Shown: positions 21,901 through 55,200 of the stretch, one piece after another
How positions within the stretch are numbered: the stretch's first letter is position 1
How the letters are laid out: each line of letters begins with the position of its first letter
Source of the DNA: Beroe forskalii
Taxonomy: Eukaryota; Ctenophora; Nuda; Beroida; Beroidae
Length of the DNA: 64,000 nucleotides
Assembly: GCA_011033025.1 (NCBI GenBank)
Contig: WFMF01000697.1
Location: forward strand, 1 to 64,000
Reading direction: 5' to 3'
Made by a program: the position numbers and the translations under genes
The notes under the pieces: model-generated
What the model was told of the DNA's origin: nothing
Database searches by the model: none
The model's input: the letters and a program-made list of their open reading frames with translations, nothing else

Positions 21901-24900
21901 GATATTGTAGGAGTTTGGAACGGCTACTACTATCTTACATTGTAGAACATGCTCACTTCTGAGTGATGTGTCATTGACTCTTTCGACTCATGTTCCAAGT
22001 TTAACAGAAGGAGAGTGAGAGTTGGATGAGGGTCGTGTAGGAACCATTGGCGGGTGGAAGTGACGTCATTATCATGACACTGAATACTAAACTGATGATG
22101 TGAAAGAGCTGATCGCAGCATGCAGTGACGCAGCATGTTCTGAAGGTGACTAGAGACAAGTGTCCAAGGTAGTGAAAGGGACAGTGTGTTTGTGCAGGCT
22201 GAGTGTTATATTTGTGAGAACTTGTCAGTGAACACAGAATGTACATTATACAGGGCACTAGTGTTTCTATACACTGCACACGGATTAGTCTTGGCTCTTT
22301 CCAATCCATCTAAAAGACCATGGACCCTGCACTGTATGTTAAGATACACCACCTACAGCTCATGCTCCTGTATACAGTGCAGAACCTTGCATTTATAGTA
22401 ACTCGTGGTGATAAGTCACTTCTCAGTTCGTGCACGTATGAAGTTGAAAAAATTCTAGTGTTTGTCAATATTGTAAATCTAGATGAGAAGTTTTAAAATT
22501 TTCTGAGGATATATCTGCAGCAACTTTTTAACGGAAAATATATAACGAAACGAGATGTAACTGATTACAACTTTCATACATACATATTATATCTATACAT
22601 AGATCTATATTCCTATCATACATGAACATGCGCACACTGCCACACGGTAGATAATTGGTAGTTAACTCTCGGGTAGTGGTAGTAGGAAAGCGGGTTATAT
22701 AATGGGTATTGGAAATGACTTGTACCGTGGTCGCAACCTTGCGCAGTATACATTTCATGCACTTTTTGTAGGATTATACATACATGTGTACACAGCACAT
22801 AGTAGTGTATTCTATAATGAAGTCGTATGCAAACGTAATGTATTACATAAGAAAATTTAATAAGTAACCCAACAAAATAATGCGAAACTTAATAAATAAT
22901 GCTTTTTGTCGCTGAATATTCAATAGTTCTACATTCATTTCAGGCGACATTGAACTCAGTCAAATTGACAAGACATCATTTTACGTTTAGTTTTTTCAAG
23001 GCTAATGGTTTTATTATATATGGCACATTATGACATTGGAGCAAAAGGAAGAGCGTGACATTTCATACTTCGAAAACTTAAATCATCTTCTAGAACATAT
23101 GCCCAAAAACTGGTTGAAATCCGAACGCATACATTTACCGTACTAGCACGAAATTAAATTATTTAATCAGACCAAATCATGAAATTCCAGCTGAAATTAC
23201 TAAATTAGGACTTATGAGCGTATGGTATCATCAACATGCTTATCATTTTGCATCATACAGTCTCTACTTTCAGCCTCGTTTTTTGAAAGTTTGAAGGTAA
23301 AACCATGGGGCCACAATTCAAATGAAATCTAATCAGACCAAAACTCTAAGCCATAATTCCACATACACCCCTCCCCCGTATATTTTGGCAAGCTACCCCT
23401 ACGACTTGAACCTAACTCACCTTCAGTTGTTATAAACTTAACAACACTACTAATTACAATCAAATTTGAGAGCTGAAGATGAAGTTGATCATTGAAAATA
23501 TTTTGATTAATAACCCCGTGTTTCACTTAAACGATCAATTGAACCAACTCACCTTGGTGCCAGGTTTGCAACTCAGCCCTACCCCCCTTGGTGCCGGGTT
23601 GTCTAGTGGCTAGCCTCCTTGGTGCCAGGACGCCAACTAACCTTGGTGCCGGGTTTGCCGGACGCCACCGTGCACTCCTCACTGGCAGCCCCGTAGGTGG
23701 TGCTGATTACCATGGGTCTGTTGTCCAGGGAGGCCGGACTATCCTCCAGACTTATCTCCTTGAAGTCAACAACCTGACGGTGTGGGAGTTACCGAGGTGG
23801 GAGTTGAGGTGACAGTAGAATGGGGTTGTGAGACAGATAGTTGCGTGATTAGGGGGTTTCCAAAAAATCGAAAACACCACTATATTTAAAATAGGCGTTG
23901 AAAATTGTGGAGAGATTCATGGTCACTGACGCGAATTTTCGACATCATCAATATTACTCGACAAGGCCGAGTCACCATTTGATCTGCTAAAACGCACGAA
24001 ACCTTCAAGGTTTTTAAGAGTTATATGACATGCAAATTCCACGCAGGAGCAATGAAATCAGCAAGACCTAAAGTTAAAGGTGTCCAAAACCCAGACGGAC
24101 TGAAATCTTTGATTCTGAAAATAAGTAATAACCCGTTCATAAAGAGAGACACAATCCCATAATTTTCATGACGAGTGAGTCAAAAAGAGGACCAAGTGCT
24201 CTTCACGTTCACTAGAGATAATATGGTGCCTTCAGGGGGAAAACATGCAAAGACCACTGAAATCTCGATGCAAATTTGATTGAACACCACCCAAAATTAA
24301 CTTTTATAACGGTTGGATAGTATTTTTGTGCAGGAGTGCAGCAACATCCATGATAGCTTTGCGGTGCCTGAAAATTAAGTTAGTAGGAGGAATCTGTAAA
24401 TGAGGAAAGTCTGAATGAGGAAGATGATTCGATTGTTTTCACTGGAAAACGGAAAGTAACCGTAATATAAGCCAAGAAAAAAGAGGGTTTATCATTAAAG
24501 TTTTTAATGTGAATCTAACAGTTGAATCATTAGAAACTGTTGGCATATTGGGGATGTTTTCTGGGATCACACCATGGATGGTGGATCACTGGATCAGTGG
24601 ATCACCCTACCCATATACCCAGGGTGGTTCGGACCCAGGATTATAAATCTGAGGGGATCTTCCAAATTCTAGAGAGATTTGCTAATTCCGACAAATAATA
24701 CCCTGAAGATGGAACATGAAGGAGATTAAACACGCACCGAGTAACTCACCAAGTTCTCCTCACTTCCGTCTATTCCGTTCATCTTGAGGAGACCGCCGGG
24801 TTCTGTGGCTGTGTCATCGTCAATGTTAGCTGCTCCTCCGACACCCATCTCGGAGGGCGTACCACGGACAGACTTGTCTGGCGAATAGCAAGGGGGCGTT

Positions 24901-26956
24901 ACCATGGTAATGAGAGGACGACGGGAGTTACCATGGTTACTAAGGGTGCGTTACCATGGGGCCATGTTACAAAGGGTGGTTAACGAGTAATCATGGTTGC
25001 AGGGTGTGTGACCCTGGCAACAAGGGGCTGGTATCATTGCTACCCTGTTACCTGTCACCTAAGAAGTTAGTACCTGCCCCATTAATTACATCCATATCTT
25101 TTCTGATTTGAAGTTACGATCTATTTTCAAGAAATGTGGACACTGTTCAACAATAAAATTGTAAGCTATTGAATGAAAGGTTTGATTAATGATAAATATT
25201 TACTCGGTGTGTATTTCGTAGCATATATAATTTTCATTACTAAAATTAATGTTCGTACAATGTACATGGTCACCGTCTGAGTTGTGTGCACACTCAGCGT
25301 TTTTTAAGTTTTTAATCTACACATTGAAATGCACAAAAAGTTATAAACGTAGTGTGAGCCAGCCAATGTATATGGGCGGTGTATTGCCAATAAAAATAAG
25401 TGAAATCGTCTGAACTTCAGTAAGTAGTGCATGCTACTTTCAAACACTTCAAATCAGTGAACTTTTTATAAACTAGTATTACAATTTGTAAATACATAAG
25501 TGCGGAAATAAAGTTATAACGCGCACTCTGATTAACAAAACTTATTGTTATGTACGTTCATCCTTGATCAATGAATTGCCATTCATCAATCAATTATACA
25601 GCACATCATTGATCAATGATCATTGACAATTTCTATAATGAATGAGTTCAGCTAATATACAACAAAGCTGAGTTATAGTTTTAATATAATATTTATTAAG
25701 TGTCATTCAAAGTCCATCCGACTTCTAACTTTCTAATCTGATTTTCACTTTCTAGCATAGAATGATAGAAGGTACGACCCAATGCCAATTCAAATTTGAT
25801 CGTTCAATTTCATGAAGAAATCATTCCTTTTCGTGTGGAGGTGGCTAATATTTTGCAATTAGCCACCTCGGCCACGATAACTAACTTCTCGTTCTCATTC
25901 ATCATCTGAGATAAGGTTCCTGTTTTTTTATCATTAGGAGGGAAGTAGTTGTGATATAACAAACGTGACAACACGTGCCACACATTCCATATCCCTAGTA
26001 AGACATTGGTACTGAGTACTTATTACTTTATTAGTATGTCTAAACACTATCTCACAATTAATCCTTTAGAAACACAGTTTGTAAGTGCACTGCATAGCTT
26101 GAGTACCTAAGTACCTCCAGTTTGTTCATGGGAACTATGCCACGTGGGTACGCGACCAATAAAAACATTGCAAACCCTAGTCAGGAAATCGAATTTATGC
26201 TTCTATGATGGTTTTTCCTAACTTGAGTGTTCTAAGTTTCAAGTTTCTGTTCGAACAGGAACTAGAAAACAGAACATGTTCTGTTTTCTACCTGAAGACA
26301 GAATAAGGACTAACTAACTAGCATCAATAACAAAGCCAAAGAAGGTCCTTTGTAGCACTCTTGTTCCGTTTGTCAAAGCTACTTCGAGAAGTAGCATTTT
26401 ATCTCATAAGTCGATTGATGAGAGGGGAATAACATACACATTTCATACTCTTACAACTGAACAAGTCATTGAATCTTACTATCTTAGATCTACACTCACT
26501 CACATGTACACTAACTCCAACACTTCCTACTCAGAGCTACTAAAACTTAGTATTGAGAGTGTAACAAAACTCAGAATAATATGTGAATTGTGAAATTGCA
26601 TTATACTTTTACCACTTTCTCACGAAAAAAAGGCCACATTTTTAAGCACAGATGTCTGTGAAACTTTTCTTAAGCCAATCCAAAGGGCAAAGCTCTCTAG
26701 CAGTCCAACCCACCATGTATCTCTAGACATGGTGGAAAGCTAGAGCTTTCTGAAGAAAATCGCGATTTCTTTTGATAATAATAGGAATTAAGGAATATTA
26801 TAAAGTTATAAATTCGATATTCATTGTTCATTGTTCACCCACCTGATTTCTTCCTTCTGACGCTAGTTCCCTGTCTGGATCTCTTGATTTGTCCGGGGGT
26901 ACCGGGCATGGTAACAGGGCGACTGTGTAGCTCGTGTGTGCCCAGAGTAGGGATGC
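3937..26956 (-). CDS. DUF4139-domain protein (C. elegans F37C4.5-like), C-terminal half
   Basis: Seven exons join in frame: 26843-26956, 24750-24877, 23642-23773, 15379-15540, 14978-15115, 7107-7193 and 3937-4107 (TAA stop at 3937-3939). All have GT-AG borders. The first visible exon needs phase 1 upstream, the next junction is phase 1, and all later ones are phase 0. They give about 309 residues. The first 80 or so are a low-complexity, basic then acidic linker. From exon 23642 on, the protein has the DUF4139 signature: a hydrophobic strand ending IDLPAAFFY, then PHAFLKI, LLAGQADVFLDG, DVGSDPTIKV, VMVLDQLPKS and the C-terminal IEWNVEIP / YSVEYP. Family members usually have an N-terminal DUF4140 domain and a coiled coil; I could not find these, so the 5' end is missing or unseen. 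The biochemical function of the family is not established. A K2P gene lies antisense in the 14977-7194 intron. Confidence 0.9.
5044..5828. mobile_element. Older TIR element interrupted by a hAT MITE
   Basis: The arms at 5044-5095 and about 5781-5828 are inverted copies of each other: both carry CATGAGAGA, CAAATTTC and CTGAAGACGGTAGCCTCGT. The enclosed unit has no ORF of its own beyond the inserted 5325-5753 element. This is a nested insertion, so the outer element is the older one. Confidence 0.7.
5325..5753. mobile_element. Nonautonomous hAT element (MITE) with 8-bp target-site duplication
   Basis: The element starts CAGGCCCGTAG and ends CTACGGGCCTG. It is flanked on both sides by the identical octamer CAGCTAAG (5317-5324 and 5754-5761). 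Eight-bp duplications and CAGG-type termini are hallmarks of the hAT superfamily. The 5' part carries GGGGCGGAGCCCC-type palindromes and the 3' part ends in a G/C homopolymer-rich run. No transposase is present. Confidence 0.88.
5887..6006. repeat. Fold-back element, 51-bp near-perfect inverted arms
   Basis: The arms 5887-5937 and 5956-6006 are inverted repeats with very few mismatches, separated by 18 bases. The arms begin GATGAGTAATTTAT and end at ACAAATGT. It could form a long hairpin if transcribed. Confidence 0.85.
6007..7106. other. Intronic sequence of the DUF4139 gene, no gene seen
   Basis: AT-rich intron. Only a short direct repeat (GCTACAAGCTCA / GCACGCTACAAG around 6878-6915) is notable. 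Confidence 0.6.
7194..11160. other. DUF4139 intron; hairpins but no supported gene
   Basis: It holds an 11-bp inverted repeat CCTCGACCAAT/ATTGGTCGAGG (7985-8036), a hairpin around CGGGCTTCGCACCCG (9512-9546), and ACCTTCTC/GAGAAGGT fold-backs (9983-10055). Overlapping ORFs on both strands at 10060-10388 and 10624-11049 match no family I recognise, and I do not call them genes. Confidence 0.5.
11161..11340 (+). repeat. Degenerate minisatellite upstream of the K2P gene
   Basis: About six diverged units of roughly 27 bp with the core GTTGTAGCTGTAAGTTGCTC. Several units contain GTAAGT. It may lie in the 5' flank or 5' UTR of the K2P gene. Confidence 0.65.
11606..13957 (+). CDS. Two-pore-domain potassium (K2P) channel
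   Basis: Five exons with correct phases: 11606-11875, 12110-12347, 12594-12686, 13340-13474, 13608-13957. They encode about 361 residues, normal for the family. ATG 11606 is the first of several in-frame ATGs; 11612, 11621 and 11624 are alternatives. Layout: short N-tail; TM1 (VAILLLLFGAAVIFMG); extracellular cap with several N-x-S/T sites; pore loop 1 with filter T-V-G-W-G, split by an intron between the first G and the W; TM2 (ITMLYAVFGLPIFAA); TM3 (LATLVIVLFTLF); pore loop 2 with TIGFGD; TM4; basic coiled tail. K2P channels form dimers and carry background K+ currents in the plasma membrane. The Trp in filter 1 replaces the usual Tyr/Phe. The gene lies inside an intron of the minus-strand DUF4139 gene. 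The K2P identity is secure; the subtype is not assigned. Confidence 0.93.
14185..14190 (+). terminator. Candidate polyadenylation signal for the K2P gene
   Basis: AATAAA lies 228 bases past the K2P stop codon, in GTTCAATAAACACC. Confidence 0.45.
15541..23553. other. 8-kb DUF4139 intron without a supported gene
   Basis: AT-rich. It contains a GTGA microsatellite (about 16195-16215), three TGACGTCA-bearing patches (17588, 21358, 22060) with partly similar surroundings, and one small fold-back element (21023-21193). ORFs are short and unrecognisable. Confidence 0.6.
21023..21193. mobile_element. Small fold-back element with CTTCG hairpins
   Basis: The ends ACTATTAACC and GGTTAATAGT are inverted, and the arms continue with GTAGAG-TAAGTAACAT. 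The interior holds a direct repeat of GAACTCGGCTTCGCCTCGTA and a CGCTCGCTGGCGCTCG hairpin. About 171 bp, no ORF. Confidence 0.7.
23554..23668 (-). repeat. Four tandem copies of a DUF4139 exon end and its donor
   Basis: CCTTGGTGCC(A/G)GG occurs four times between 23554 and 23653. Read on the minus strand, this is the exon end GGCACCAAG followed by a donor. The innermost copy has the donor GTTAGT; the outermost copy has a better consensus, GTGAGT. Reading past the inner donor meets a stop codon, so use of the outer donor would truncate the protein. Confidence 0.8.
26263..26290. repeat. Perfect 28-bp palindrome
   Basis: A perfect palindrome centred on AGAACATGTTCT. The centre resembles steroid-receptor half-sites but without the usual 3-base spacer, so I do not call it a receptor site. 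Confidence 0.7.
26689..26749. repeat. Compound hairpin
   Basis: Outer arms AAAGCTCTCTAGC / GCTAGAGCTTT and inner arms CCACCATGT / ACATGGTGG with a loop of ATCTCTAG. Confidence 0.7.
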
Positions 26957-29869
26957 CTGAGGGGAGTAGTGAGATAACAGAAGCATTATAGGATGCCTGA
27001 GGGGAAAACCTACATTGATGGGGGGAAGGGTCACGGAGGGTATCCAGGAAGGAAAAGGGGCAATTGAGGGAAGGGGGCTGTGGAAAGATGTATGAGCTTT
27101 ATTCTTTCGCTAATTCACTATCCCAAACTTCACGTAAGCAGGGATTTTCACTGCACGAAGTCATTATACGGAAATTCAAAATACGGCATATAGCTGGTTT
27201 ACATGTCTACACGGCTTACATTGTGACAGGAACACCATGAGCTAAGTATTTAATAATTTGCACAGCTTGTAACAGGGAATAAGGGAGTTATTTAAACGCC
27301 TTATTTTGAGGTTTTCAGGTAGTAATTAACGTTTCGTGACAGAGCTCAGCTCTGATCGTGGGCGTCTCTTGGACAGGGATATTCCTGTACAAGTGTAGGA
27401 ATATGTAGATTGTAGAACTTACTTGGAAATCATATGTACATCCAGCTTTCAATGTGTTCCTGGATGAAATACGCTAGGGGCGTCACGCAAAAATGCTTTT
27501 TAACGCAACCAATTATCAAATTAAATCATAATGATGACATCACTTTCGCCTGGTCATCATTAGCTCACAGCGCGTAGGGAGGGAGGGAGGGATTATATAA
27601 TTTATGGAATGACATACACATCATATCATGTTAAATTACATACAAACAAGGTACATGTTAAACATGTGTCACAACTGTGTGGGATCTACAGAGCCGGTAG
27701 ACTAGCTCATTCTTTGAAAATACGCGGTGTTATATTATGTAACATCATCGAAACACCATTCTGATTCCTGATAATGACGTCATCAGACACCACTCTAGGA
27801 TCCCTGATAATAATCTTACGCGCAAACGTTACTTTAGCGCGCGCTCAATCACTGATGATGATGCTGTGTTTGTCATAATGTGACTTGGGTTTAACTCCCT
27901 GGTTACTGTCATCACAGATAATGTTAATAAGGGTGAGATCATACAGAAATCTAACAAAAGTAAGACAGTAGGGAGTGAGATAATTGGCTAAATTTACTGG
28001 AAATAGCTAATTAAAATGATGCCGTCGTTCATCCTGAAACTTAATTGGTTACAAGGAATTGGAAAACCAGTACGTCTCCATTCTGTGATGAGCTCAGTAG
28101 TAAGTATCATGATCATCGGCATGATTGGAGTTGCTGAACTGAGAAAAAGCAGTTATGAAGCTGTGAACTTCATATTTGGATTAGTCCTTCAGCCCTTGGT
28201 AACTCCCCTTGCTTCCATAACTGTTATAAACAACTTCTGTAAAACAAGCCCATTGACTGAGCTTGTTTAAATAATGTAATTTTCATTTCAAAAGTTCAAA
28301 AGTTTAAATTGATACCGATGACAATGGGTCTCAGAGGAAATTCAAAATTTTCTGGATGTAGGTACTTTTTGCGAGCGAAGCGAACGGGGCACAGAAAACG
28401 GAAAAATTGGATTAAATGGGAAAAATTTTGGCCCCTACCGGGAAGAAAAATTCTTTTGAAAGGTAAGGTACACACATTTAAATATAATAAATCCTAAAGT
28501 TTACATATTAACGTGACAGAATCACACAGAATAACGTATGCAAAAAACCGTGACTTGTGACAAAAGCATCAATACTGTGGACATTGTCTCATTGTTTCGT
28601 TTGCATCCAAAGTACGGCCATTAATAGCAATTGTCCCCATTGGGCATTGTATTTTTTCTCATTTTCAACTTTCCATGCCGCATGGGATGATTCAAAGTTT
28701 TACAGACCATTGTTTTCCAAATCTCATAAAATAGAAGAATTTCCAGCACACGCCAGTATGTGATTCCTTCCGACATAAGCTCACGTCGCCGAGCGGTTTC
28801 CTTGTTTTTGCATGTTTTAGCGGAGGTCTCCAAGGAGGCTCCTCTCACCGTAGAATTTAAAGAAGTAAAGAGTAGGAGGCAAGCCTTAGCCTCAATCCTG
28901 ACGCATATTGGAGGCTATAATAGAGGCTACTCAAGATGATAACATTGAGACCACCATCATCTTTATAAGTTTATAACCTTCCTTTATATGTCTGTATCAT
29001 GTGTCATGCAAATCGTAAACCCTGGGTGAATAGTGTCAATATAATGAATACTGACGCATATCAAATTGTATTGATGTGCCGAGCCCTGTGCCAACAAGAC
29101 AATAGTTGAGAATTACCGCTGTAAGCTATTAGGGTCATTGTGGAGTTGTGAGTGAGACTAATACACAATAACAAGGTAATCAGGGGTCCTCGCAACCCTC
29201 TCTACGTAGGGATTTAGCTGTAGAATGTAGACCTTTCTTTTCAGGGTGTATATAATGATCTCCTGAATATTTAAACACAACAAATTGTCCTGGAAGATAC
29301 CTTTGATATGGTGATCAATTGATGCGATTTGTATGTAGTATGTTAGTATAGTACAGAACATAATTTGTGCAACGCTGATTTGAGATGGAAAGCATGCCTA
29401 AACAATGATTTAGATCAAGATGTAATACATCATTATATTCTTCGATACCGGTAATCAAAGTACGAACAGCTATGGTGTCAGATGTTGGTATATACAAAGT
29501 GTGTTTCTCAACACAACCCTAGATTGGTCCATGAATTACGCTACTAGTGAAATTCATTTTCCTTCTTCAGATCTTCAATATGGATGAGTTGATGTAACTT
29601 ATTTGTAAATAGCATCACTAGCTTTCACACAAAGAATTTCATAAAAATCGTTAAAATTCATAAACTGGCCTTCCTCAATTAATATACAGCTCCCTTTCCT
29701 CAACGTAGCTTTGTGCTCCCGATGCCAAAATTCTTCCCATTCACAACCCATTTAGCTAATTATCGACTGCATGAAAGTTTTCCCATAGAGCACTTTGTAG
29801 TTAGACCAATCAACACAGGATTCTTATGATACTCCGAACCGATTGTTCAAACCATGCAGTGCTGAGGGT
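26957..29869. other. Upstream DUF4139 intron/intergenic, no gene supported
   Basis: The acceptor-side motif GGATGCCTGAGGGG of exon 26843-26956 is duplicated at 26991-27004. A GAGGGAGGGAGGG run sits at about 27580. The N-terminal DUF4140 exons expected here were not found on either strand, nor were ABC transporter NBD2 motifs. Confidence 0.5.
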
Positions 29870-30190
29870 AATACTTACCACCAGTGCTGGGGGTTGCAGT
29901 GTTGTGGGTAATACTTACCACCAGTGCTGGGGGTTGCAGTGCTGTGGGTAATACTTACCACCAGTGCTGGGGTTGCAGTGCTGTGGGTAATACTTACCAC
30001 CAGTGCTTTGGGGTTGCAAGTGCTGTGGGTGTGGCACCACCAGTGCTGGGGGTTGCAGTGTTGTGGGTAATGCTTGCCACCAGTGCTGGGGTTGCAGTGC
30101 TGTGGGTAATACTTACCACCAGTGCTGGGGGTTGCAGTGCTGAGGGTAATGCACCACCAGTGCTGGGGTTGCAGTGCTGTGGGTAAATGT
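29870..30190 (-). repeat. Minisatellite of splice-competent 22/23-nt units
   Basis: Eight or so units of about 38-48 bp. On the minus strand each typical unit reads acceptor TTACCCACAG, then CACTGCAACCCC(C)AGCACT, then GGTG and donor GTAAGTATT. The array is therefore a row of potential micro-exons of 22 or 23 nt separated by introns too short to splice individually. It lies upstream of the first visible DUF4139 exon. Translations in all frames are simple repeats and are not called as protein. Confidence 0.8.
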
Positions 30191-32912: not shown

Positions 32913-32956
32913 AATATGCCAACTGGCAATGCAGCATAATTGGAGCATTAACCCAC

Positions 32957-35900
32957 CTCAATAACGAGGACTATGACGAATGCGATGACTCCAATGAGGA
33001 AGAGGGCCAGGAGCTGGTTACCGATAGCACTGGTCTCCATGGTATACACGTCCGTCAGTTCCAGCCCTATCTCCTTGCAGAGTGTCTCGCTGCCTGTGTT
33101 CTCCAAACAAAGGAACCAAATCTCACGCCGGATTCCGTTACTGTAGATGTTAGCCAGCCCTTGGATGAAACTGAAAGAAGCAGGGATCAGTGAAGTGATT
33201 GAGAGGGGCCTCAAGAGTGCAGATGAAAATAGTAAATGTGGCAAAATTTCAGGAACACCAAGAGTAGCGTTTTTGCTCGAGTTGCAATTAATGTTTAAAC
33301 GGCGATAGTGCGATGATGCTATAATTGGCTTAGATTTGAACTGTCCTAATTATTACACAATCCGTGTGACCAATTTTCTCTAAGATAAAAGCAGTTAATG
33401 TTAAAACTCGGAAGTAATAAACTACTTGTAATTAGGGAGGAAGAGGAGTATCTTCTCGAGAGTTGGCTGGAAGTCACTTTGTTGGAATATCAGAATGAGA
33501 TTAGCGATGAATCCAGCCTAAAGAAAGAGAATGCGAGTCTAAGAAAGGAGAATGTGAACGATCTAAAAACAATAGATTTTCAAAGTTCAAACATAATCCT
33601 AGTTAGGAAATAATTACCTATTGAGTAAGAAATAAAGTATGAAGGTTGTGCGGCGATTTCGCTGCATTGTGTACTCACCAATCCAGTGATGAAGGTGAAG
33701 ACAGCAGTGATAGCAAAGGCCATGACAGGGGAGGAGAAAACCAGGGAACACAGGTAGACGAAGGGGATGCTCGCAATGCCGTATAACAGCTGAGGATTTT
33801 ATTATTTCAGAAAACGAAAATAAAATAGATTTTGATAAAATAAAAAGCAATAAAAACGATGAACAAGAGAAAATTATACTTTAAACTCTGAATAATCTGA
33901 GTCTATATCCTCGTACCATCAAGACAAAGACCGCTCCGATCTGCTCGTCCTTGAATCCCTGGACGTTGAAGATAGCAAAGAATATGGCTACCACCACAAT
34001 GGAAATGAGGTAGTTGATCAGGTCCCAGATGAGGGTCCCAAACCAGTACACCACGCCGTTAACTCCGCTTATTTGTTGTAAGTGTTTGCTCTGCGAGGAG
34101 AAAATGGAGTGAAGTTATCAGTAAACAATTCCCATTTTCATGTGAGATACCTCTTTTGAAACTGACATCTGCCAGATCTGGAGGAATATATCACCCCAAG
34201 GAGACACATATTTTAATTTCAAATTCTTTGAGTGGGTTACCTTGTTTTCTCTCTCCTCTACAATGAATAGGAGGAATGAAGCAGTGAGGAAGGAGAATCC
34301 GAGCAACATGAGGATGGAGAGGTTGCTGCCTTGTAAGTTAGCTCCTGACATCTCAAACTGAGGGGGGAAAAGTGAATTGTGATAACCTGATATAATTCTT
34401 GAAATGAAGTTGAAAATAAGATAAATTCATGCATCTGAATTGTTAATAAATTAAATTGATGTGATATCCGCGTTTAAAACTGTCTCCATGACACTCCGCG
34501 TTGACACCACCCACTCACCCTGTCGATGAGAGACTTAGGAAGAGGTTTGTTGCTGGTAACGATCCTCTTGTCACTGCTAGCCTTGACGAAGAGCATGTTG
34601 CTCAGCACATTCTGAACAGCCGGTGCCAAGTGGAGGCCCTCGTGGGAGAACCAACCAGTCAACATGAACTGGTCGCTGGCTGCCGTGGTGGTGTCCAGCG
34701 TTCCCAGAGTGTAGTCAGGGTCAGTGACGTCACGGTACGGGGTGCTGTCCTGACCGATCTGAGGGGGAGGTGGTTAGTACATACCGCATGCTATGGGTCC
34801 CTGTCCGACGGACGTTGCCCGCAAAGTTAACGTCCCCATGTGGAACGTTGCGCCGCGCGAGCGAGGGTAGGATAACATCCTACGAGTCCCTGTTTGCTAG
34901 GGTGTGAGCCCTTTTTCTCACGCGCCGAAAATAACAATAAGGCTCCGCAGTTCATGGAGTAATTGTAAGCTGGTGGATAGTGATAAACTGCAAAACAACT
35001 TCCTGAGATAAATCGGGCTCTTCCAATCTTAGCTTACGATCATTCTAGTTTGAGCTATGAATATCTACTCTGAGACCATTGGGAACCCATGACGTACCAG
35101 TGAGACAAAGTCTGGCACTTTGGAGTACGTGAGCGCCACTTGGTTCTTCCTGTAGAACTTGACATCCCCGTTGATTTGGCCCAGGAAAACGTTAGTGAAG
35201 TAACTCAGATCATCCGTGGTGTACTGCGGGATAGCTTGATAGTAAACCCGCTGCAGGGGAACTAACAAACAAAGTTGAAACTAATCTAAAGACTAATGAT
35301 TAAAAAAAGCATATTCAGCGATTGTAATCGGTAGAAAATCGACGATTTGAGGGATTCACAAGAACAAAATCAAGCCGAATATCCAGTCTCACATATCACG
35401 TGATAGTCTCGCAAGGTGGATAGTTCATTCACCATACCTTGGTATCGGGGAGAGGTCGGTTGCCACACCCTTCATCGTTCTGCGGAGGTATGAAGCACTT
35501 GTCGTAACACGCGTGATAACCCCAGCTGTCTTCTGCGGTACACGTCTCCCAGTTCGAACGCTGTCCTCCTGGGTGGAAGTGTGGTTGTTAGTAACAAGGA
35601 ATAGTGAAAAAAACGGACAAAACACGCTTGTCATGGATTATTGCCTCCACTCATACCCGAATGATGGAGGATGCTATATCCCAAACATGCGTTGATGCTT
35701 ATTATCAATAAGTAGGCATAGTTATAGTTGCATATACACGGTATTACCTTTATCAGCACATACACCGGCTAGTTGAAGTGCTGGATCCGCACAACAGTCA
35801 TACGAGACTCCAGCATTAGCATACGCTGTTTCATTGGCTTTAACATCGGCTGTCAGTGACTTGTGGTTCAGGTGGGCGGTCTTCAGGTAGTCCGTTACTG

Positions 35901-37252
35901 ACGACTGGGTGAAGTAAGGTTAATATCTAATTATTGATTGCGTGGGACGTGTCTCGTTGTATGAGCAGAAAAAAGTCCTGGAATACTCATGCAAAAGTGC
36001 ATCTCAGGTTTGGTTAACGAGTAGGTTTTAATGGCTCTCATGGATTCGCCGCCTCCATCTTCTGACTAGATACTTACTGAGAAGTAGTCAGCGGAAGGAG
36101 AGAAGTCCCCAAGGAATGCGAGTCCCTGGATGCCTTTACCGGGGTAGCGGGACAGGTCCATGACTCTGATATCCTCACTACCTGACTCCGGAGAGAACTT
36201 CACCGCAGCCAAACCTGGGGAAAGGGGACAAGTTATCCAAAAGGCTGTCTGTCTCAGGTTATATCAGCCATTTATAAATGTCACTTAATCAATGAAGTTG
36301 GCTGTTTAGCCAAAAAAAGTTCCAGCAAAAAAGTAGGCTAATCAAACAGTAAGAATTTCTGTATCGTTTGATGACTCATTCGGAAAACAAATTAAACTAG
36401 AGCTATAGAGAACCGCGCGTTGATTTACCTAAAACAGCGAATATGACAGGTAAAATGAGCTGGACGATGAGACCCTTCTTGTATCGTTTGGAGTTGATGA
36501 ATCGCTTGGTTATCATGGCTTTGAGTTGCTGAGCCAGAAGTGTCATCCCCGAATTCAGATCTGATGGGATAATTACTCAAATTAAGTTTTTGTTGGAGGG
36601 GATATCCAATGAGATAAAAAAAGAATAAGATAACTCATTAACTCAACATATTTCTGTTCTTTCATTCACAGTAATACCAATGTGATTAAATTACCAGAGG
36701 ATTCAAACAATGCCAAGTTTATAAATTGAAATAAGATTCAGTCCGTGGTGCTAATATCAATTAAATAAAAGAGAACCAATACATAAGCAATATTGACAAA
36801 GAGCAATATCTGAGGCTCAGATCGTTGGGTTTGAAGACTCGGAACTGTGTCTTCATGTTGGGGTCTGGAGTTTCAATGTCCTTGTTTTCCATCGTGTGAT
36901 GGCTGCCTCCGTTCTGCTGAGTCAAGGGCTCCTCTTCTTTCTCTTCGGACAACTCACCTACCTGTAAATGGTATATTAGCAGATCTAGAACGTTTATCTA
37001 TTCTCTTTTGAAATATTTTCTTATTTAAATTGATCTGTTTCAAGGCATTTTTTTCAGGTGTGAAAATTTCTTATGTCACAAAAGCCTGTGGTCAATTTGG
37101 CAAAACATAGTATTAGAGAAAACGCGAATTGTCGTTCAGTGAGGTTTTACAAGTTCACTGGGAAATGCCACCTACCTTCATGAAAACTTCTTCGAGAGTA
37201 GTGAGAGATAAGCCGAAACTGTTGATGTTCACACTGTCTGCACTATTCTTAT
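32957..37252 (-). CDS. ABCA regulatory segment and second transmembrane domain (TMD2)
   Basis: It starts with the [15 protein letters not shown] motif that closes ABCA NBD1. A charged linker ([10 protein letters not shown]) follows, then TM helix [15 protein letters not shown], a long cysteine-containing extracellular loop ([16 protein letters not shown]), [31 protein letters not shown] and the membrane helices [13 protein letters not shown] and [14 protein letters not shown]. The last exon ends GAG followed by GTGGGT; if unspliced, a TAA follows after two codons. Joint 36823/36560 lacks a standard donor: the texts AACGATCTGA and CAG-ATCTGA overlap, so the exact boundary is uncertain. Confidence 0.9.
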
Positions 37253-43200: not shown

Positions 43201-46200
43201 GATGGGTTGGTCTGTGAGCGGAGTTCTGTGAGAGTTTCATTCTGACATCAGAGTGAGATAAGAGTTTCATTCTGACATCAGAGTGAGATAAGAGTTTCAT
43301 TCTGACATCAGAGTGAGATAAGAGTTTCATTCTGACATCAGAGTGAGATAAGAGTTTCATTCTGACATCAGAGTGAGATAAGAGTTTCATTCTGACATCA
43401 GAGTGAGATAAGAGTTTCTTTCTGACATCAGAGTGAGATGAGAGTTTCATTCTGACATCAGAGTGAGATGAGAGTTTCATTCTGACATCAGAGTCCTTTG
43501 TAACGCCTCAGCGAACCTTCGTACACTGCATTGCTGAAGTGACGTGATGTCATCGAGTCTACATTAATCATTTCTAATGAGTAGTGTTCACTCGGTGACA
43601 TCAACAACAACAATCATGAATTTCCGGTGAATTTTTAATCCAAACATTTTATTTTTTCCACAAGTGAAACCTCTTAGAGATGAATCCTTGATAGAAGATG
43701 TCTTTTCTTTTTATAACTAGCTGCAACTTTTAATAATACCTAATCCTTCTTATACAACCATCCGTGTGCTTCCATCTCAAGGTTGAAGACACTGCCGAAT
43801 TTCTTTGGCCATAATATTACTTTTCTTTTAGGGTCTTTTAGATGCGAGTTGCAACGTTTTATGACCAGGTTATTATTTTACACGATTTATTTTGTACTAT
43901 ATAAGCTGTTTTGACTGAGTTACTGAAAATAGATGAGAATGTATATACGTAATGTAGATGTGTACTTATATACACGACATGTTAAGATCGTGACGAGAAT
44001 GCAAACTACTCATTTCTCACTTTTAAGCATGTAAGCCATAACTTGTGTTATCCTAAACTTGTGTATTCTAAACACACCGGTACAAAACGCTCACAGGAAT
44101 GTATAACTCTAATGATCAGGACACAAAACACTCTGCCTGTCAAAGAAATTACAAGCTTCATGAACAGTCAACTGAGACTCACATTCGAAAACATTCAAAA
44201 GATTCACCATGATTACATGAAAATATTGGAACAAGTTTTAACATCGATTTTCAAATTAGGAACACTGAAAACATCAAATCAATTCGATTTCGGGGATGCA
44301 CGATCTCATGCTGAAAGAAGGTTGATATCAATGTGTAATAAGAAAGTTAGAGTTTCTTAGTTGGAATCATGCTACATTCCCACGAACACGCTAGATCACA
44401 AGAAATAGGCGGTTCGACGGATAATAAACTTTTCATTACGAGATGGGAATAGTATTTACTTCATCTCAAACCGTCTATTGTTAGTGAAAAACTTGCAAAC
44501 ACAAACAAACGACATCCACCACCCCACACCCACCCGCCCCATCCACCCCCAACCCCCACATTCACCCCCACCCCACAACATCCACCAGCCCCATTCACCC
44601 CACACCCCCCACCCAGCCCCATTCACCCCATTCACCCCCAACCCCATTCACCCCCAACCCCCACATTCACCCCCACCCCACAACATCCACCAGCCCCATT
44701 CACCCCACACCCACCCGCCCCATTAACCCCACACCTACTCACCACATTCAACCCCACCCCACCACATTCACACACCCACCATTGGAGAATCTACCAAGAC
44801 ACAACTTGACAACTTACAGAGGGGAGTTTACACTCATCTATGTGGTAGGAGTTGGTTAGAACCACATCCGTCTTTTTCTGTAACAAAGACACAGATTATT
44901 CTCCGGAAGGTAAGGTTCAGGTTTGGAACATTCAACAACGATGAACATCATGGCCTAGATTTGTTAGATTATAAAAAGAAAAGAAATAATAACCGCAGAA
45001 AATAATAGCTATGACAGTTCATCGGGGTCTTCACCTATCAACTATAATTAAACACTTAAAATTTTTACTTTTTAAAGTCAACGAATGATCCAAAAAAGGA
45101 GCTTAAAACACATGGAAGCTAACACAACATAGTTACCACGTCGAACCAAAATGGGCTACTTATACAGTTAACACTGATCTTAATGAAACGTTAATGAGCA
45201 ATTACAAAGTGGCCCATTCCTTTTCCATCGATCAGCAGGGGCCTATCAGCAGGGGCCTATCAGCAAGGGCCTATTCAGCTGTGTCGCATATTATTGTCTC
45301 TCTGGTTTAACATAAGGGAAAAAACCACGAGAGCTAGAATCTTTCCCTTCAATCGTTCAGCCTTTCTTCAGTTAAAGTTTTCTATGAAAATCTGTCGTGC
45401 AAATCAACGCTTATGTTGAATGGAAATAGTGAATATAGCAGTACAATCAAGCATAATCTTATGTAGTCTTAATCCCCGATTGAAGGGATAAGAAGAGGTG
45501 CTTTTATTTTTTCTAATTGATACCATGTGACATATTCCCGAAATTGTAAAGCCATGCTATGATCTGATGGATAGTGGCAACGAGTGCAAACAAACCAAAT
45601 AGAGGTCCCAGCATTATTGCCGTGTATCTCATACCGTTAAAATGTTACAGATTTTCAGCCGAGTGTACTGCTGACAGAACGAGGATTTTAATGTCATTTG
45701 AGAAAACAAATTCGTTAAAGTTCATTATTAACAATTTATTATTGCTTCAAGGCTTTCCTATTCGATGGATTCAAATTTAATTTCCTAGAAGTTAAAAATG
45801 CTTCACAGTTCACGTGAACTTGATACACAACTTCAACTCTCCGTAATAACACGGATGTTCTTACCCTAAAGCTCATATTATTCCGAATGTTTCGTAACCA
45901 GGGAACAACCTCTACCATCTTTGAGTTCTCGGAATGCTATAACACGGTTAGCAAAGAAAAAAGGAGGAAGCTTCTTAATCTTTAAAATAAAATAATTTTT
46001 ATCGGCCCATGCGATTTGCAACGTTATTCGGACTTTAATTTCATTCACCTGTTCCGTTTCTTGGAGGCTCCAAACCAGTACTCTCTTGTAACGAAAAACC
46101 AGGGTTTTTGTTTGATCCCATATTCCCCGGGGAACACTGCCTCAACATACCTGAAGATACAACGTCAATATCGAATATTTTTGCGCTGGAATGGGTAACA

Positions 46201-49200
46201 GGTGTGGACTTGGGAACAGTGGAATTTACTTCGTTTATTGGGGCTCCTGTCACCCTTTGAGAAATTTAAACGTTTTAAAGCTGTCGAGACCCAACACACA
46301 TACCATGTCATGAGGGAGTAGAGTATGATGTCAATGAATAGCATCAACATCACATCGCCCATCGTGAAGAGGTCCAAGTCACTGGTCTGCTTACCAACGT
46401 TATTGGGGGAAACACGTTCAACGTTACGGGGGGGAAACAGGGTTAACATCTTAGAACTGGTGGAAACCCCAGAAAATAAATAAACCATAGGTAACCTTTA
46501 TTTTTTCCAATTACGATCAAATTTGTCGAAGACCCCGAAAGAGTTGCCAACAGCGCATAATAAAATAACGTACTTGAACTGAAGTCCCTCCTCCATGGTC
46601 TCCCACTTGGAGATGATGTTAGCTCCGAAACCCATGCAGGTCGAGGCGAGGAGACAGCTCATGTACCGCGAGTTACTGCGAGGGGAGGAGAAGTGAAGCC
46701 TCCAACAGAGGGTGTAAACAGGGGTGCATATCATTATGCGATGTGATTCATTGAACGTCATTTTGTATCGAATAGACTTGTGATAAACTCCTGAACTTCA
46801 AGAATGCCTTACAAAAAGGTTCACTTACTTGGACATGTTATCGAACTCGTTGCCGAGGAAGAAGTAAGGCACGTAGAGCATGAAGTATCCGAGCATAGTA
46901 CCCGCTATAGCAGTAGTGGTCTTAGAGAACAGCGTGCTACGGGGGTACGGGGGTTAATTTAGGTGAGAAGAAGCATCAGTCGAAAGAATTGCTGATCATA
47001 AAAGTAACGCCATGAAACTCAGATTTAACACTAAATTCATTGCACAACATCTCAAATGGCAAATATCGAGCTTGTCATCAGTAAGATGACAGGCTGAAGG
47101 TGCAATCAACTGACAATGAGTCTGCTGATTAGGTTACCTGAGGCTGAAGGTGCAATCAACTGACAATGAGTCTGCTGATAAGGTTACCTGAGGCTGAAGA
47201 TGCAATCAACTGACAATGAGTCTGGTGATGAGGTTACCTGAGGAAGAAGCAGAAGCACATGACAGTGACAGCGTACTCAAAGAGGAAGATAAAGAGGATG
47301 GCAGCGTTGGTGTGTATGACGTATCGAGCTAGTTTCATGACCAGAGTCATGAGGAAGACGGTGAGCAACATGAGTACTACCCGCTGTACCACCCAACTCA
47401 ACCAGAGCACCCAGTTAGCTAACCCCATCATCTTCATCGTCTCCTTCATACGGCTAGCCTTCTCTCCTACCAGCTCCTGTCAAAGAGTTATTACATCATA
47501 ACAAGGCTAACAAACCCTCTTAATTCAACATCACAAATAGTATACACAACAAATAATACATTGTAAAATCTAAAATAATACATTGTAAAATAATACATTG
47601 TAAAATCTTCCATGAAACATGAGGGTGCTCCAACCAAATGACGGCCATACCCATCATATCATACACCAGTCCTACAGAAGAACGTAGTGACTAAGGACAT
47701 GAATTTATTCATATTCTACACTGTACACCCATACAAATTGTAGCGTGTAAACTTTACAAACCTTGCTGATAGAAGCTCCAATCCAGAGGAAAGATATCAC
47801 AATCATGAGAGGCAGACTGTTCCGAATAGCATTCGCAAATCCGTCTTCTTGCCACATTGGATAGGGCAGTTGCTGAAAAACGTAGGTTTAAAGATGTCAG
47901 TGATAACTTTTATCCAGAAGAAATCGATATGGAATTGAATGTGCCATTTCATTCAGCATAGATTAGGACGTAAGTCCAATGTTTAAGTCGAGAGAGCAGA
48001 CTACTCACCCGGATAGCCACAACAGGGATATCACTAGGGGGCACTCCCTCATGGAGTAGAATAGCTCGGTCAACCAGTTGCTGCATCCCTACCCATCCTT
48101 TCTTGTAACCACTGTTAAAATATAGGCATTAGAGTGATCAAATAACTGCAACAATTCGTCATTACTATCCTTGATTCCTTGCCACATTGACACCAGATAA
48201 ACGCTTTGTACAAACATCTCACCTCCTGTACTCAGGGCCCGGACTGAAGTATCTGGCGTAGTCCCTGTCTGTGTTGTATTGACTCTCGGGTGCCAGATTG
48301 CTCTGCATGCGTAACGTGTACTCGATCTTGTCGTCAACTTGAGTAAACTCAACCGCTGCAAAACGCACATTGAAAACTTTTGTATTTGACATGCTTGAAG
48401 GAGCATGGATCTAAGATCCGTATTCCACTCAGGCCTGCCAATGGCCTAATTCAGCTTTGTTCCAGGTCCTACGCCTGCGTATGGCCTGTATACGCCAAAC
48501 GGGATACGGATATCGGATCTATGCATAAGTAAACTAAAAACTCTACAGTGTAAAGGAAAATGAAATATCAATCCATCATTCAGCTATTTGGGTAGTATTT
48601 AGACAACATTATCAGTACGTGGTTATTGGTTAATCATCATTTGTACTGATAATTAGAGTGCAAAGGGCCCCTTAATAAATTGGCAAAATAGCCCAAATAA
48701 ACAATCAATGAGAAAAACCGCCGTACGTGTGAAATGCGCGCGAGCCGCGCAAATTTGATGCCGATACAATAAGAAAAAACAATTCGCTATTTGCGCCCGA
48801 CACGAAGACTGCTAAGATTCACAGTATGTGACCGTGTCATGCATCTGATTCTCTGATTCAGCGTGAATAACTGCTTTGATACTACTGCTTTCCGATGACC
48901 GAATGATTTACGATTACGGAACACGGGAATTTTGCCAAAACAATGACATTGATTTGAAGCGTTCATACCTTTTTAATGTTTTATATTCACAAATTACGCA
49001 TTATGGATGAATGATAGATGCATGAAATGAGTGAAAAAGGGGGCTCTTTTTATGGTAATAAATGTGTTTGCTTTCAATGTCATCGATTTGGTAAGTGCAG
49101 TAACATTTTTCGTCATGCTCGATTGGGTGCTTAGTGGTGTCAACGTCATAGGGTTGGTATGTGGAATGTGCAAACGTAGCCATACGTAACGCATAATATG

Positions 49201-52200
49201 GTGCAGAGTGGTGTCAACGTCATAGAGATGGCATGTGCACGTAACACTATTCGTCATGCTTGATTGGGTGCTGAGTGGTGTCAACGTCATAGTGTTGGTA
49301 TGTGGAATGAGCATACGTCGCTGTTCGTCATCGATGACTGAGTGGTGTCAGTCGGCATATATAAAGACCTGTGTTGCAGTTCTCGTCATTAATTCTTTTA
49401 AGTTTCTTGTCTCATTTGCCTTGTTTACTTGTCGTGTCTTGCTTAATTCGTAATAAATAAGGTACCGTTGTTAAAAGGTACCGTTGTTAACAAGGTACCG
49501 TTGTTAACAAGGTACCGTTGTTAACAAGGTACCGTTGTTAAAAGGTACCGTTGTTAAAAGGTACCGTTGTTAAAAGCTACCGTTGTTAAAAGGTACCGTT
49601 GTTAAAAGGTACCGTTGTTAAAAGGTACCGTTGTTAAAAGGTACCGTTGTTAAAAGGTACCGTTGTTAAAAGGTACCGTTGTTAATAAGGTACCGTTGTT
49701 AACAAGGTACCGTTGTTAACAAGGTACCGTTGTTAACAAGGTACCGTTGTTAACAAAGTACCGTTGTTATCAAGGTACTGTTGTTAACAAGGTACCGTTG
49801 TTAACAAGGTACCGTTGTTAACAAGGTACCGTTGTTGAGGTACCTTTGTTGAGGTACCGTTGTTGAGGTACCTTTGTTAATAGGGTACCTTTGTTAATGA
49901 GGTACCGTTGTTAATAAGGTACCGTTATTAATATTAGTTAATAGGGTACCTTTGTTAATGAGGTACGTTAGTTAATAGGGTCCATTTGTTAATGAGGTAC
50001 CGTTGTTAACAAAGTACTGTTGTTATCAAGGTACTGTTGTTAAAAAGGTACCTTGTTAAAAGGTACCGTTGTTAAAAGGTACCGTCGTCAACAAGGTACC
50101 GTTGTTAATAAGGTACCGTTGTTAACGATGTACCGGTGTTAATAAGGTACCGTTGTTGTTGAGGTGCCGTTGTTAACGAGGTACCGTTGTTAATTAGACG
50201 CCGTTGTTAATAAGGTACCGTTGTTAATAAGGTACCGTTGTTAATAAGGTACCGTTGTTAAAAGGTATCGTTGTAAACAAGGTACCGCTGCTGAAAAGGT
50301 ACCATTGTTCACAAGGTACCGACCTTAATAAGGTACCATTGTTAACGAGGTACCGTTGTTAACAAGGTACCATTGTTCACAAGGTACCGTTGTTAATAAG
50401 GTACCGTAGTTGATAAGGTATCGTTGTCAATAAGGTATCGTTGTTGATTAGGTACCGTTGTTAATGAAGTACGGTTGTTAATGAAGTAAGGTTGTTAATA
50501 AGGTACCGTTGTTAATAAGGTACCGTTGTTAATAAGGTACCGTTGTTAATAAGGTACCGTTGTTAATAAGGTACCGTTGTTTATAAGGTACCGTTGCTAA
50601 TGAGGTACTGTCGTTAATAAGATACCTTTGTTTATAAGATACCGTTATTAATAAGATACCGTTGATAATGAAGTACCTTTGTTAATAGAGTACCTTTGTT
50701 AATGAGGTAACGTTGTTAATAAGGTACCGTTATTAATAAGTTAACGCTGTTAATAAGGTACCGTTGCTGAAAAGGTACCGTTGTTCACAAGGTACGTTGC
50801 TAACGAGGTACCGTTGTTTACGAGGTACCGACCTTAATAAGGTACCGTTGTTAATAAGGTACCGTTGTTAATAAGGTACCGTTGTTAATAAGGTACTGTT
50901 GTTAATAAGGTACCGTTGTTAATAAGGTACCGTTGTTAATAAGGTACCGTTGTTAATAATGTACCGTTGTTAATAAGGTACCGTTGTTGATAAGGTATCG
51001 TTGTCAATAAGGTATTGTTGTTGATTAGGTACCGTTGTTAATAAAGAACGGTTGTTAATGAAGTAAGGCTGTTAATAAGGTACCGTTGTTAATAAGGTAC
51101 CGTTGTTAATAAGGTTCCGTTTTCAATAAGGTACCGTTGTTGATAAGGCACCGTTGTCAATAAAGTATCGTTGTTGATTAGGTACCGTTGTTAATGAAGT
51201 ACGATTGTTAATAAGGTACCGTTGTTAATAAGGTACCGTGTTAATAAGGTACCGTTGTTGATAAGCCCCGCCCCCTCAATGGCCCTAGTTCTGGATATCA
51301 TTTGCCTAATAACCAATAACTTTTATAGCAAGTGATCTTCACGCAGATAAATCATAATGGAAACGGCAGTGAGACACCATAAAACCATGAGGTCAACGAT
51401 AAAGCTTACTTAACACTTTAGTTTTGTCATGAACATCACCTGAGACGTTTACTTTCGCTTTACTAATAAAGGATAAGCAACCGACCGACATTATCTCTTT
51501 CAGAGAGCAACAGTGCGCTCTTTGAGCAGCCTTTTGATGAACACCTTAAATCAATGTGTCAAAGTGCTAAATGGTTAAACGTTCAATTTACGCATCAATA
51601 CGCATGTGACATGTCAAAACTTTTTAAAGGAACCATCGTGCAACGTGCAATTATTGATTTGTCGCAACTCTCAGTTAGTTTTTGCAATGAGAAACTTTTT
51701 GAATTTCTGTCTAGGCTAAAAGTTTCAAATTTCTTGATAAATAAACAATTAAGTTCTTTTTGATATATCAGAAGAGTTTCTTAATTTTTCCGAGGTTCCA
51801 AGCAGATTTTTAGACAGTTTCTCATCAAAAGAAACTGAATGTGTCAATATCGTCAATAAGCGTATAACACAAGTCACAATTTTTGACCCAAAAAATGCGA
51901 GATCAAAGAAAGCCATTATTAACTATTAACCTGCTGAGAAGAATTGTGAGTTTTGGATCAAGGTGTCCTGCAGATCTTCAATGGTGGGCATCACGGCTAC
52001 TTCCTTTCCAGAGAAGCCGTAATCAGTGAACAGCTTCGCAATGCGTTGCGGTAACGTTCTGAAAGGAAGAGGTATCAGGAATAAATAAATATTTCCCATA
52101 TGAAATCAGACAAACATGAAATCAGACAAACGATGATTTTTTTAGGTCAACAAACTAAATCTTTAGTCTTTACATAGAGGTATATTACTTTCGTAATACT

Positions 52201-55200
52201 GACATCATCAGAGCCTTTAAAGGAATCTCAAAATTAGGTACATTGTAGAGGTATCAATAATTCCATGTATATTCAATACTTATACTAAATTTTTGTCAAG
52301 TTATTTCCAAAACCATGACGAAGAATTGTATCCCCATGTTACAACTTGGCTCAATTCCCCCAAAGATTCGATGAGAATCTTTTGAGCAGTAAACGCTGAA
52401 CAATGAATGATATGCAACATAACATAATAATGTTTGTTATGCAGTGATTGCCAGAACATATAAAAACATCATTATCGACCAAGTTTTATCGCTATTAAAT
52501 AATATATATTTACTAGCTTTAGCACACTACTTAGCATTCATTGTACATGGAATGTTTACATACTGTGCTTGTGAAGCGTTTTGAGCATGCTCTACTACGA
52601 TTACTTTCCAACCATAATGGAGTGGGTTATAGTAATAATAATGGAACATTGAAGTTACAGCAGCATAACGACTATAGCTTCTTTAGGCAAGATAATGCAT
52701 TAGATAATGCGAGATAATGTAAGATAGAGAGTTTCGTAGACATACAAAGAATCGTCATCGAATGCCTGGATGATGTTGTTGATTTCTTGCTGAGTGTACG
52801 TCTTGACGGTGTAACCAGGGATGAAATCCTGCTGCTTCACCATCTCAGCAGCGATGTCTCGAACTGAAAATAAGGGAAGATTAGAAATGTCCCTGAAAGA
52901 AAAGTATGCGAAGATTAGAAATGTCTTGAACTGAAACATTGGGAGATAAGAAATGCTGTCTCTCCATTTCACATAGTTCATCCCAATTCTGATTTGCTAT
53001 AAGATTTGGCAGGAGATCTCATATGGGCAAATAAGTGGTAAAGAAATCTGTCGAGTTCTGATCTAAAGAGTGCAGTAGTAATCTTTCTTCAATTTGTCAG
53101 GAGACACAGATTTGTCTCTGACGCAGATTTACTTTTCACACGTACTGGGAGCATGCTGTGTGCCTTTATTTCACATTTGAGCGTTAACTACTAAACCATG
53201 TTTATAATAAGTGGCATCTGCTGTGTTTTACTGAACTCTATCATTATACCCACGTGGATACACACAATATAGCGTATTTGTAAAATGTATACATGTATTT
53301 CACAATGAAATTCCTTCAAATTTAGCATTTTAACATCCACTTATGCCTTTTTCGTGGTGCTTTGGCAATATTTCAGAAAGTTAGCTCCAAAAAAGCACAT
53401 CATTTGACATTTCTGATTCAGAGAAAAGTAATGTTCCAATGAACTGATTTGAAGTGTCATACACTAAAAACATTAAACTCTCCAATATATAGTCGGAATA
53501 TCAATGAATCCATCATCTCGACTATTTTTAAGACTTTGAAAGAGTATGTATAATATAGCACCTTTATATACTGTACCAGTATATGAGGCATATAATAGTA
53601 AAGATTAAGGAAGTTTCCCAGAAGTAACAACTTTAATGGCAACACACCAGGACAGGTCAAGAAACATTGAATGTACATAATCCCCGCTATAGCAGCATTA
53701 AAGATGCTTCTTGTGGGTGTTTCAATACGACAAGTATATAATGTGATTGACTGATTGCCGATTTGTACGTAGAAGTAGTCAATTGCATAACTGCATGATT
53801 CTCATTACATAATTTCAATTCTTCAGATATATGGCCCAGCAATGTTCGCAACAAAGTGTGCAGTAAAACCTACCGTATTGTGTATCTGGGGCCAGCCCGA
53901 TGACTGACAGCGGATCGTATTGGTTGGAGAACCGAGCAGGGTTCATCGGCTCGAAGTACGCTGAAATAGTTCCCACGTTAATCCCTTGTCTGTGGAAACG
54001 CTCCTCATTCTTACAATCTGGCGTTATTTGATAATAATCAATTGTGAGGTTATTACCTCATTAAGTTATTACTTTATTATTGAACTATCTTTGCCCACGA
54101 AGTTTTTAATTGTTATTTCCCATAGTGCTGCAATGAGCTATTTTTTATGATAACAGTTGGCATAAAAGTATAAAGCTACCTATTATTCAAGCATAAATTC
54201 TGATAATTAGGCATCTCAGAGTGATATTCTGCTCATTTTGTTCTGTGTGAGTGTTGAGAATTCAATCAGAGATCTTATTTAGGAATGCGCAAAACTGAGA
54301 GAACAATAGTACCATGTACAATGTACAATGTACAATGTACATGGTCATGAGATGCATCAATTTACAATGCACAAAACTGAGTGTATCATGTGAATTGTAT
54401 ACTTGTATAATGTACTTTGGTCAGGAAATGCATCAAGAAATGTGGAACCAGCATGAAGCACAGCCGTCATTGAAGGCTGTGCTTCATGCTGGTCCTTCGA
54501 TCACATTAAATTCAAATTATTTGAAATCATGTTCTATAGACTTGGTTGTTATACATGTATTTTCAATTTGAATGTTATGATTAAATTATGTAGGACTTCC
54601 AATAATGTACATATTATATTCATTTATTGCAGAAATTCAAATGTTAGAATTTTCAAAAGGAAAAAAATATTGAACTTACAAAAGCAATGATCAACTATGG
54701 GCGATGTTAACCTGAAATCAACAAACATGTGATCAGTGACCCTGAATTGAGTTGTAATCTCACACAACAGCATTATCATTAAACACAAATATTTTCTACT
54801 TTACATGATAATTGTTTCGTATTTTCATCAACATACCACAGTTATTCACATAGTATTGACAGCTAACAAGGCTGATATTAAAATCATCAAGGAAATCTTT
54901 AACCATGCAGCCATCACAGGCACTTCTTCATCATCATTATCATAGAATTTGGAGCTAATTGATCTGCAGATTGCTCAATTTTCTATCTTTAGATTTTCAG
55001 AAGACCTTAAAGCAACAGGTTGTCAGTACCTGACCATAGATATGAGTCCTAGGAAGATGCATGGTAGAAGTAGCTCAACTAGGGCCCCAACAGGTCTTCT
55101 CATCTGAAATTATGGTGATGTGTGTTCGTAATCAGTACAGTGAAAGTTGTTCACCTTACCTGGAGTACCAAGCACAATTTCTAAATTACAACTTTACAAA

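Follow-up and report, generated by a model that had tools for sequence, protein, structure and literature searches.

The DNA considered here is a eukaryotic stretch of 64,000 nucleotides from the ctenophore Beroe forskalii (assembly GCA_011033025.1, contig WFMF01000697.1, positions 1 to 64,000, called the window below), with two minus-strand genes at whose exon edges short tandem repeats carry copies of the adjoining splice junctions. Repeats of this kind have a name, 'mirages', which refers to tandem repeats across intron/exon boundaries, described in the Adh3 and globin genes (BflGb6, BflGb9) of lancelets (PMC3087553) and, in the available part of a second report that also cites TnC, in lancelet PGBD5 (PMC3902484). 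An earlier note on the window, which reported eight repeats with a copied exon splice junction and knew of no name for the pattern, had overlooked this precedent.

The larger gene, modelled from splice consensus, phase and open frame (with splice weight tables of generic values), has exon peptides that best match ABCA3 (7w01, E 9.1e-198), structures of ABCA1, ABCA4 and ABCA7 also being matched. The model is in frame throughout exons 1-11, 14-18 and 19-27, and exon 27b, placed by splice motif within an open frame, restores the phase between exons 27 and 28. Three joins are irregular: a piece is missing between exons 11 and 12, exon 13 has no good donor and exon 18 has no GT donor. In the region of exon 18 (36828-36560), where the homology ends without this GT, ATCTGA was seen by eye at both intron ends. 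A 14-nt microexon taken from an array was considered as a cure for the phase problem between exons 13 and 14 and dropped, since the stretch that it would extend fits the homologues as it is. The model stops after the second membrane domain (32957 downwards); a motif search and a tblastn search with the first nucleotide-binding domain as query detected no second such domain in the window. The smaller gene (26956-23642), for which no Pfam match was obtained, was modelled with three exons (26956-26843, 24877-24750 and 23773-23642), whose edges were shifted by a few bases from the model output before repeat overlaps were counted.

Repeats were sought by a gene-blind scan for local direct repeats (offsets 10-250, scoring +1/-1.5, score of at least 15), which returned 472 segments in 37 loci of the window and none in three Markov-1 control sequences. 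All eight places claimed earlier overlap one of these loci, and the stricter Tandem Repeats Finder (score 30) found four of them (29855, 39340, 41476 and 47091), the four missed arrays being short or degenerate. Fifteen of the 37 loci fall inside the two gene spans (an element at 49.1-51.3 kb being counted once), and five of these reach 6-23 nt into an exon across its edge (23544-23658, 26951-27005, 38633-38734, 39340-39793 and 47091-47249). For this count exon 27b was modelled one base too short, and exons 13 and 18 were given guessed ends.

A junction-centred scan covered 61 modelled junctions (the exon 1 acceptor and the donors of exons 13 and 18 were left out) and found a junction-spanning copy in the junction's own intron at six of them, with scores of 75, 65, 42, 39, 38 and 30 at a threshold of 24, against 0.03 expected when the same junctions were compared with non-own introns of the same kind. 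Because six were observed and 0.03 expected from other introns, these copies are not look-alikes of the splice consensus. At a laxer score of 18, seven junctions stand against 0.51 expected, the seventh being a weak, previously unclaimed case at the exon 2 donor. The features are collected in Table 1. Six of the eight repeats of the earlier note thus lie at modelled exon edges, five by the gene-blind scan and the sixth, at 52.9 kb, by the junction-based scan, the gene-blind locus (52863-52945) falling 4 nt short of the exon; the other two (29.9 kb and 41.4-42.9 kb) are genuine arrays with no verified exon.

Table 1. Host transporter gene, exon-edge arrays and related minisatellites of the window
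Feature	Position	Strand	Remarks
ABCA3-like transporter gene	32957..53960	-	29 exons in the model; four of the mirages lie in it
Degenerate mirage, 4 copies of GGCACCAAG exon end	23544..23658	-	Donor of exon 23773-23642 (donor at 23642); own-intron score 42, control maximum 0
Two-copy mirage, 15-bp TCCCCTCAG/GCATCC at 40-bp offset	26951..27005	-	Acceptor of exon 26956-26843; score 30, control maximum 15
Mirage, 3 copies (offsets 31 and 47 nt), unit TTCATCAA/GTGAGTGGGAAGTGGGAT	38633..38734	-	Donor of ABCA exon 15 (38727); score 39, control maximum 15
Mirage, 9 scored copies including the real edge, ~46-bp unit	39340..39793	-	Acceptor of ABCA exon 14 (39362); score 75, control maximum 15
Mirage, 3.1 copies of a 50-bp unit, 96% matches	47091..47249	-	Donor of ABCA exon 7 (47238); score 65, control maximum 15
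Degenerate mirage, three acceptor-like copies (52930, 52892, 52863)	52863..52945	-	ABCA exon 2 acceptor at 52863; score 38, control maximum 14
50-bp minisatellite, 29 scored copies, mirage-like, candidate acceptor	41383..42886	+	Unit: CTCCTCAG, 5' leader, ATG and first codons of open reading frame 42867-43181
40-bp minisatellite, 8 scored copies	29855..30186	-	Donor-like GTAAGT and acceptor-like CAG motifs

The arrays differ in preservation and content. At 23544-23658 the nearest copy reads GTTAGT and the farthest GTGAGT, the two middle copies having no GT. The unit of the 39340-39793 array is made up of the acceptor and 22-23 nt of ABCA exon 14; what had been taken for a copied donor in it is a GTGAGT inside the coding sequence of this exon (GAT GTG AGT GCG). 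The array at 41383-42886 overlaps the start of a plus-strand open reading frame of 105 aa (ORF, 42867-43181) by 20 nt and keeps AG in 27 of 29 copies and ATG likewise in 27 of 29; as judged from the unit, its putative acceptor is plausible. The plus-strand ORF region 42867-43494, which lies within a transporter intron, shows by eye a signal-like start and one membrane-like stretch, and a 30-bp repeat (8.8 copies, 98% matches) comes after its small ORF. At the 29855-30186 array no exon could be placed in the gene modelling of the window.

Lancelet mirages have units of 10-72 and 150-160 bp, occur at both boundary types and hold AG or GT in many copies (PMC3087553). Their definition further includes regular splicing that stays undisturbed in RT-PCR and a length that is unstable between alleles or somatically. 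The same anatomy is seen here: tandem duplication across the exon-intron boundary at six of 61 junctions (scores 30-75), three donors and three acceptors, units of tens to ~160 bp, and AG or GT in many, not all, copies. The exon-edge arrays are a case of a known, little-studied pattern and match lancelet mirages in the structural features tested. They differ in that the six cases come from two genes of one window, a dense occurrence, and are known from one sequence alone, and in that deeper parts of the exon are represented in one array. No report of exon-edge mirages outside lancelets was found in a literature search, other papers using the word 'mirage' not being examined. In some nematode papers the word may denote a transposon of that name. 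A search of the literature on ctenophore minisatellites in introns returned nothing relevant.

The deeper pieces belong to the acceptor array of exon 14, where three stretches of the exon interior lie within 39363-39793 (39676-39658, 39642-39631 and 39525-39502). They correspond to exon positions +34 (18 of 19 identical), +60 (12/12) and +146 (23 of 24), and keep the orientation and order that they have in the exon; as a control, 3893 bases of other exons yielded one 11-nt match. Each piece comes after a TATTTCAG-like intron end (by eye), and microhomology at the seams, also judged by eye and with no statistic, amounts to ~0-4 nt. Since three other exon-14 pieces are present in order, the array did not come from pure slippage; its composition suggests that the template was switched repeatedly during break repair or replication, and a repair pathway, we infer, stands behind it. 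The published description of lancelet mirages leaves their generating mechanism unclear (PMC3087553). A possible parallel comes from C. elegans helq-1, for which the accessible part of a report describes patchwork insertions and tandem duplications by polymerase theta, short flanking stretches being copied by repeated primer-template switching (PMC8654963). The exon-14 array likewise holds several short stretches copied from flanking DNA; the worm cases, as far as that part of the report goes, are deletion junctions in mutants, whereas here the patchwork is confined to the exon-14 array and read from sequence only. The mixed exon pieces give a concrete, testable hint on how such arrays form. 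A broader proposal, tentative and to our minds somewhat more likely wrong than right, is that mirages arise in an animal outside cephalochordates through microhomology-guided template switching, which would copy junction DNA together with pieces of the same exon in order, and hence that mirages, driven by repair, would quite generally supply decoy splice sites and raw material for new introns.

When ten arrays were compared with 1500 bases on each side, seven had no match and fragments of a neighbouring exon appeared in the exon-14 array only. For the 42 and 43 kb arrays, the best ten matches shown in each case pair one array with the other in inverted orientation; the idea that the two are inverted copies of each other was dropped, the matches reaching at most 12.5 points.

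Use of the copies would have consequences for the proteins. Copies with a matching splice motif were listed for exon 7 (two), exon 15 (two), position 23553 (one), exon 14 (nine, read in the frame of the exon's own start), exon 2 (two) and position 26996 (one). All 17 listed alternative copies break the reading frame and none leaves it intact: 16 bring a stop within the extension, and the copy at 52892 shifts the frame and meets a stop 18 codons further along.

The placement of the arrays was compared with several null models, all of them reported here and picked, like the region itself, after the data had been seen. In terms of base coverage (each sampled position being compared with one side, picked at random), copies occur at six of 61 junctions (9.8%) versus 25.8% of 2500 sampled intron positions. 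Outside four large arrays the intron figure is 5.2% of 1874 positions (P of six or more, 0.10), and when the junction arrays are also excluded, which is circular, 1.9% of 1771 (P 0.001). At exon interiors copies were found at none of 800 sampled positions. In other words, exon interiors are protected and exon edges behave like introns, and the absence of copies from the former, with many in introns, is expected if copies survive only where no coding sequence is added. Counted by locus, unconstrained random placement of the 15 loci gives 5.5 exon contacts where five were seen (P 0.72), whereas with exon overlap capped at 15, 25 and 40 nt the expectation is 0.44, 0.80 and 1.43 (P 5e-5, 7e-4 and 0.009). 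A unit-based null, in which single units were placed and those inside exons discarded, predicts 1.48 of the 15 loci (for five seen P is 0.01, for six 0.0015) and, for the transporter gene alone, 1.29 with three seen (P 0.13); its unit lengths were set from repeat tables and by eye, and among the exon ends mentioned above that of 27b alone was corrected. A modest excess at junctions by locus count is possible, although it is post hoc in a region chosen for the pattern. Whether placement across exon borders exceeds chance, as the earlier note supposed, depends on the null: it does under the capped and unit-based nulls (P 5e-5 to 0.01), and it does not under unconstrained placement or by base coverage of all introns.

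These observations are best read, with a probability of about three in four, as mirage-type minisatellites whose junction-spanning copies are tolerated in the intron. A short local duplication (~30-50 bp) would happen to span a splice junction; one working junction would stay beside the intact exon and every extra copy would fall in the intron. The duplication would be tolerated because the gene keeps one working junction next to an intact exon, and the extra copies would be essentially neutral. With two copies present, slippage, unequal exchange or further repair copying could expand the array or let it decay, repeated template switching being the probable form of copying in the case of exon 14, while splicing would continue at the exon-proximal, frame-preserving copy. 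Arrays of this kind imply that a genome can tolerate many spare splice-junction copies.

Several points weigh against this account. Use of the proximal sites is deduced from frame alone. Fragments of a neighbouring exon were present in one of the ten arrays scanned, and an older, larger duplication followed by deletions could also have left the exon-14 pieces. A further 65 matches for the 42 kb array and 30 for the 43 kb array, scoring up to 12.5 points and above their shuffled controls, were set aside. The excess of loci at junctions (1.48 expected, five or six seen) is also larger than tolerance alone would give, with room for some targeting.

Such targeting is the strongest of the alternatives: DNA would be duplicated preferentially at exon/intron borders, for instance when breaks associated with transcription, R-loops or base-composition steps at exon edges are repaired by end joining. 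It would explain why junction-spanning loci are three- to fourfold more numerous than under unit placement, why the overlap-capped nulls give such small P values, and why donors and acceptors are both hit. We regard it as unlikely all the same, since the excess is absent under unconstrained placement and by base coverage of all introns, has a P of 0.10 outside the four large arrays and of 0.13 within the transporter gene alone, and was measured in a region and with nulls chosen post hoc.

Improbable, too, is the view that the arrays are stages on the way to intron gain or intron sliding, with copied junctions turning into new introns or exons at a later time. Exon-edge arrays are a proposed route to new introns, and their anatomy fits the model drawn for lancelet globins (PMC3087553). 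In the potato RdRp gene, according to the available portion of the report, a duplication across an intron-exon boundary became a new intron (PMC4974935), the likeness being a boundary duplication that supplies splice signals. The copies here, in contrast, sit within existing introns, and the alternative ones yield stops or a frameshift.

Selection for backup or decoy sites, by which splicing would be buffered or regulated, an explanation offered in the earlier note, is not supported, and we hold it to be very improbable. AG or GT is kept in many copies (27/29 and 9/9), the copy at 52892 outscores the used site (6.1 versus 5.3), the copy at 23553 is by eye nearer to the consensus, and intronic minisatellites have been tied to alternative splicing in C. 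elegans in the part of a report available (PMC4039745). The frame is nevertheless broken by every listed alternative copy, GT is lost in two middle copies at 23.6 kb, and the retention of AG/GT is not clearly above that of other unit positions. Conservation was measured in three arrays, one of them at a verified junction: in the exon-14 array 1.0 of the AG/GT positions versus 0.95 of the others are kept (low power), and the splice-like motifs compare as 0.948 versus 0.951 in the 42 kb array and 0.969 versus 0.944 in the 29.9 kb array, two arrays with unverified exons and again low power. Minisatellites at exon-intron borders are likewise found in human segmental duplications, where the accessible part of the description mentions variable internal tandem repeats with units of 30 bp on average, some at such borders (PMC2812944); those change the transcripts and are linked to gene duplicates of recent origin, as far as that part states, whereas here use of a copy would break the frame.

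Chance similarity to the splice consensus or an assembly artefact is scarcely credible, for although the assembly of arrays is difficult, their copy numbers may be inaccurate and model junctions are irregular at exons 11/12, 13 and 18, the former is excluded by the own- versus other-intron control (six versus 0.03) and by the Markov controls, and copies that differ among themselves are unlike a simple assembly duplication.

Other repeats of the window lie apart from exon edges. An element is present in two copies, at 31649-32907 and 49100-51265, with a shared leader that contains a TATATAAA motif and is 87.6% identical over 354 nt in the same orientation; the leader is followed by a 17-bp GGTACCGTTGTTAAYAA satellite of ~52 copies in the first and ~108 in the second. 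Element patterns of 20 and 31 bases had no match in viral contigs, the 20-base pattern had none in prokaryotic genome contigs, and Rfam gave no match at its gathering threshold. A duplication at a 103-bp offset (37747-37922) encloses TAACCC telomere-like repeats, and TTAGGG-like runs occur at 410-501 and 959-1051. Coding matches outside the two genes comprise an ion-channel (Ion_trans_2) match on the plus strand at 13580-13954, a HIRAN-domain ORF on the minus strand at 56926-57738 and, also on the minus strand at 61998-63998, an XPC/Rad4 C-terminal region in a single open frame of 667 aa with a modest XPC match of 175 bits.

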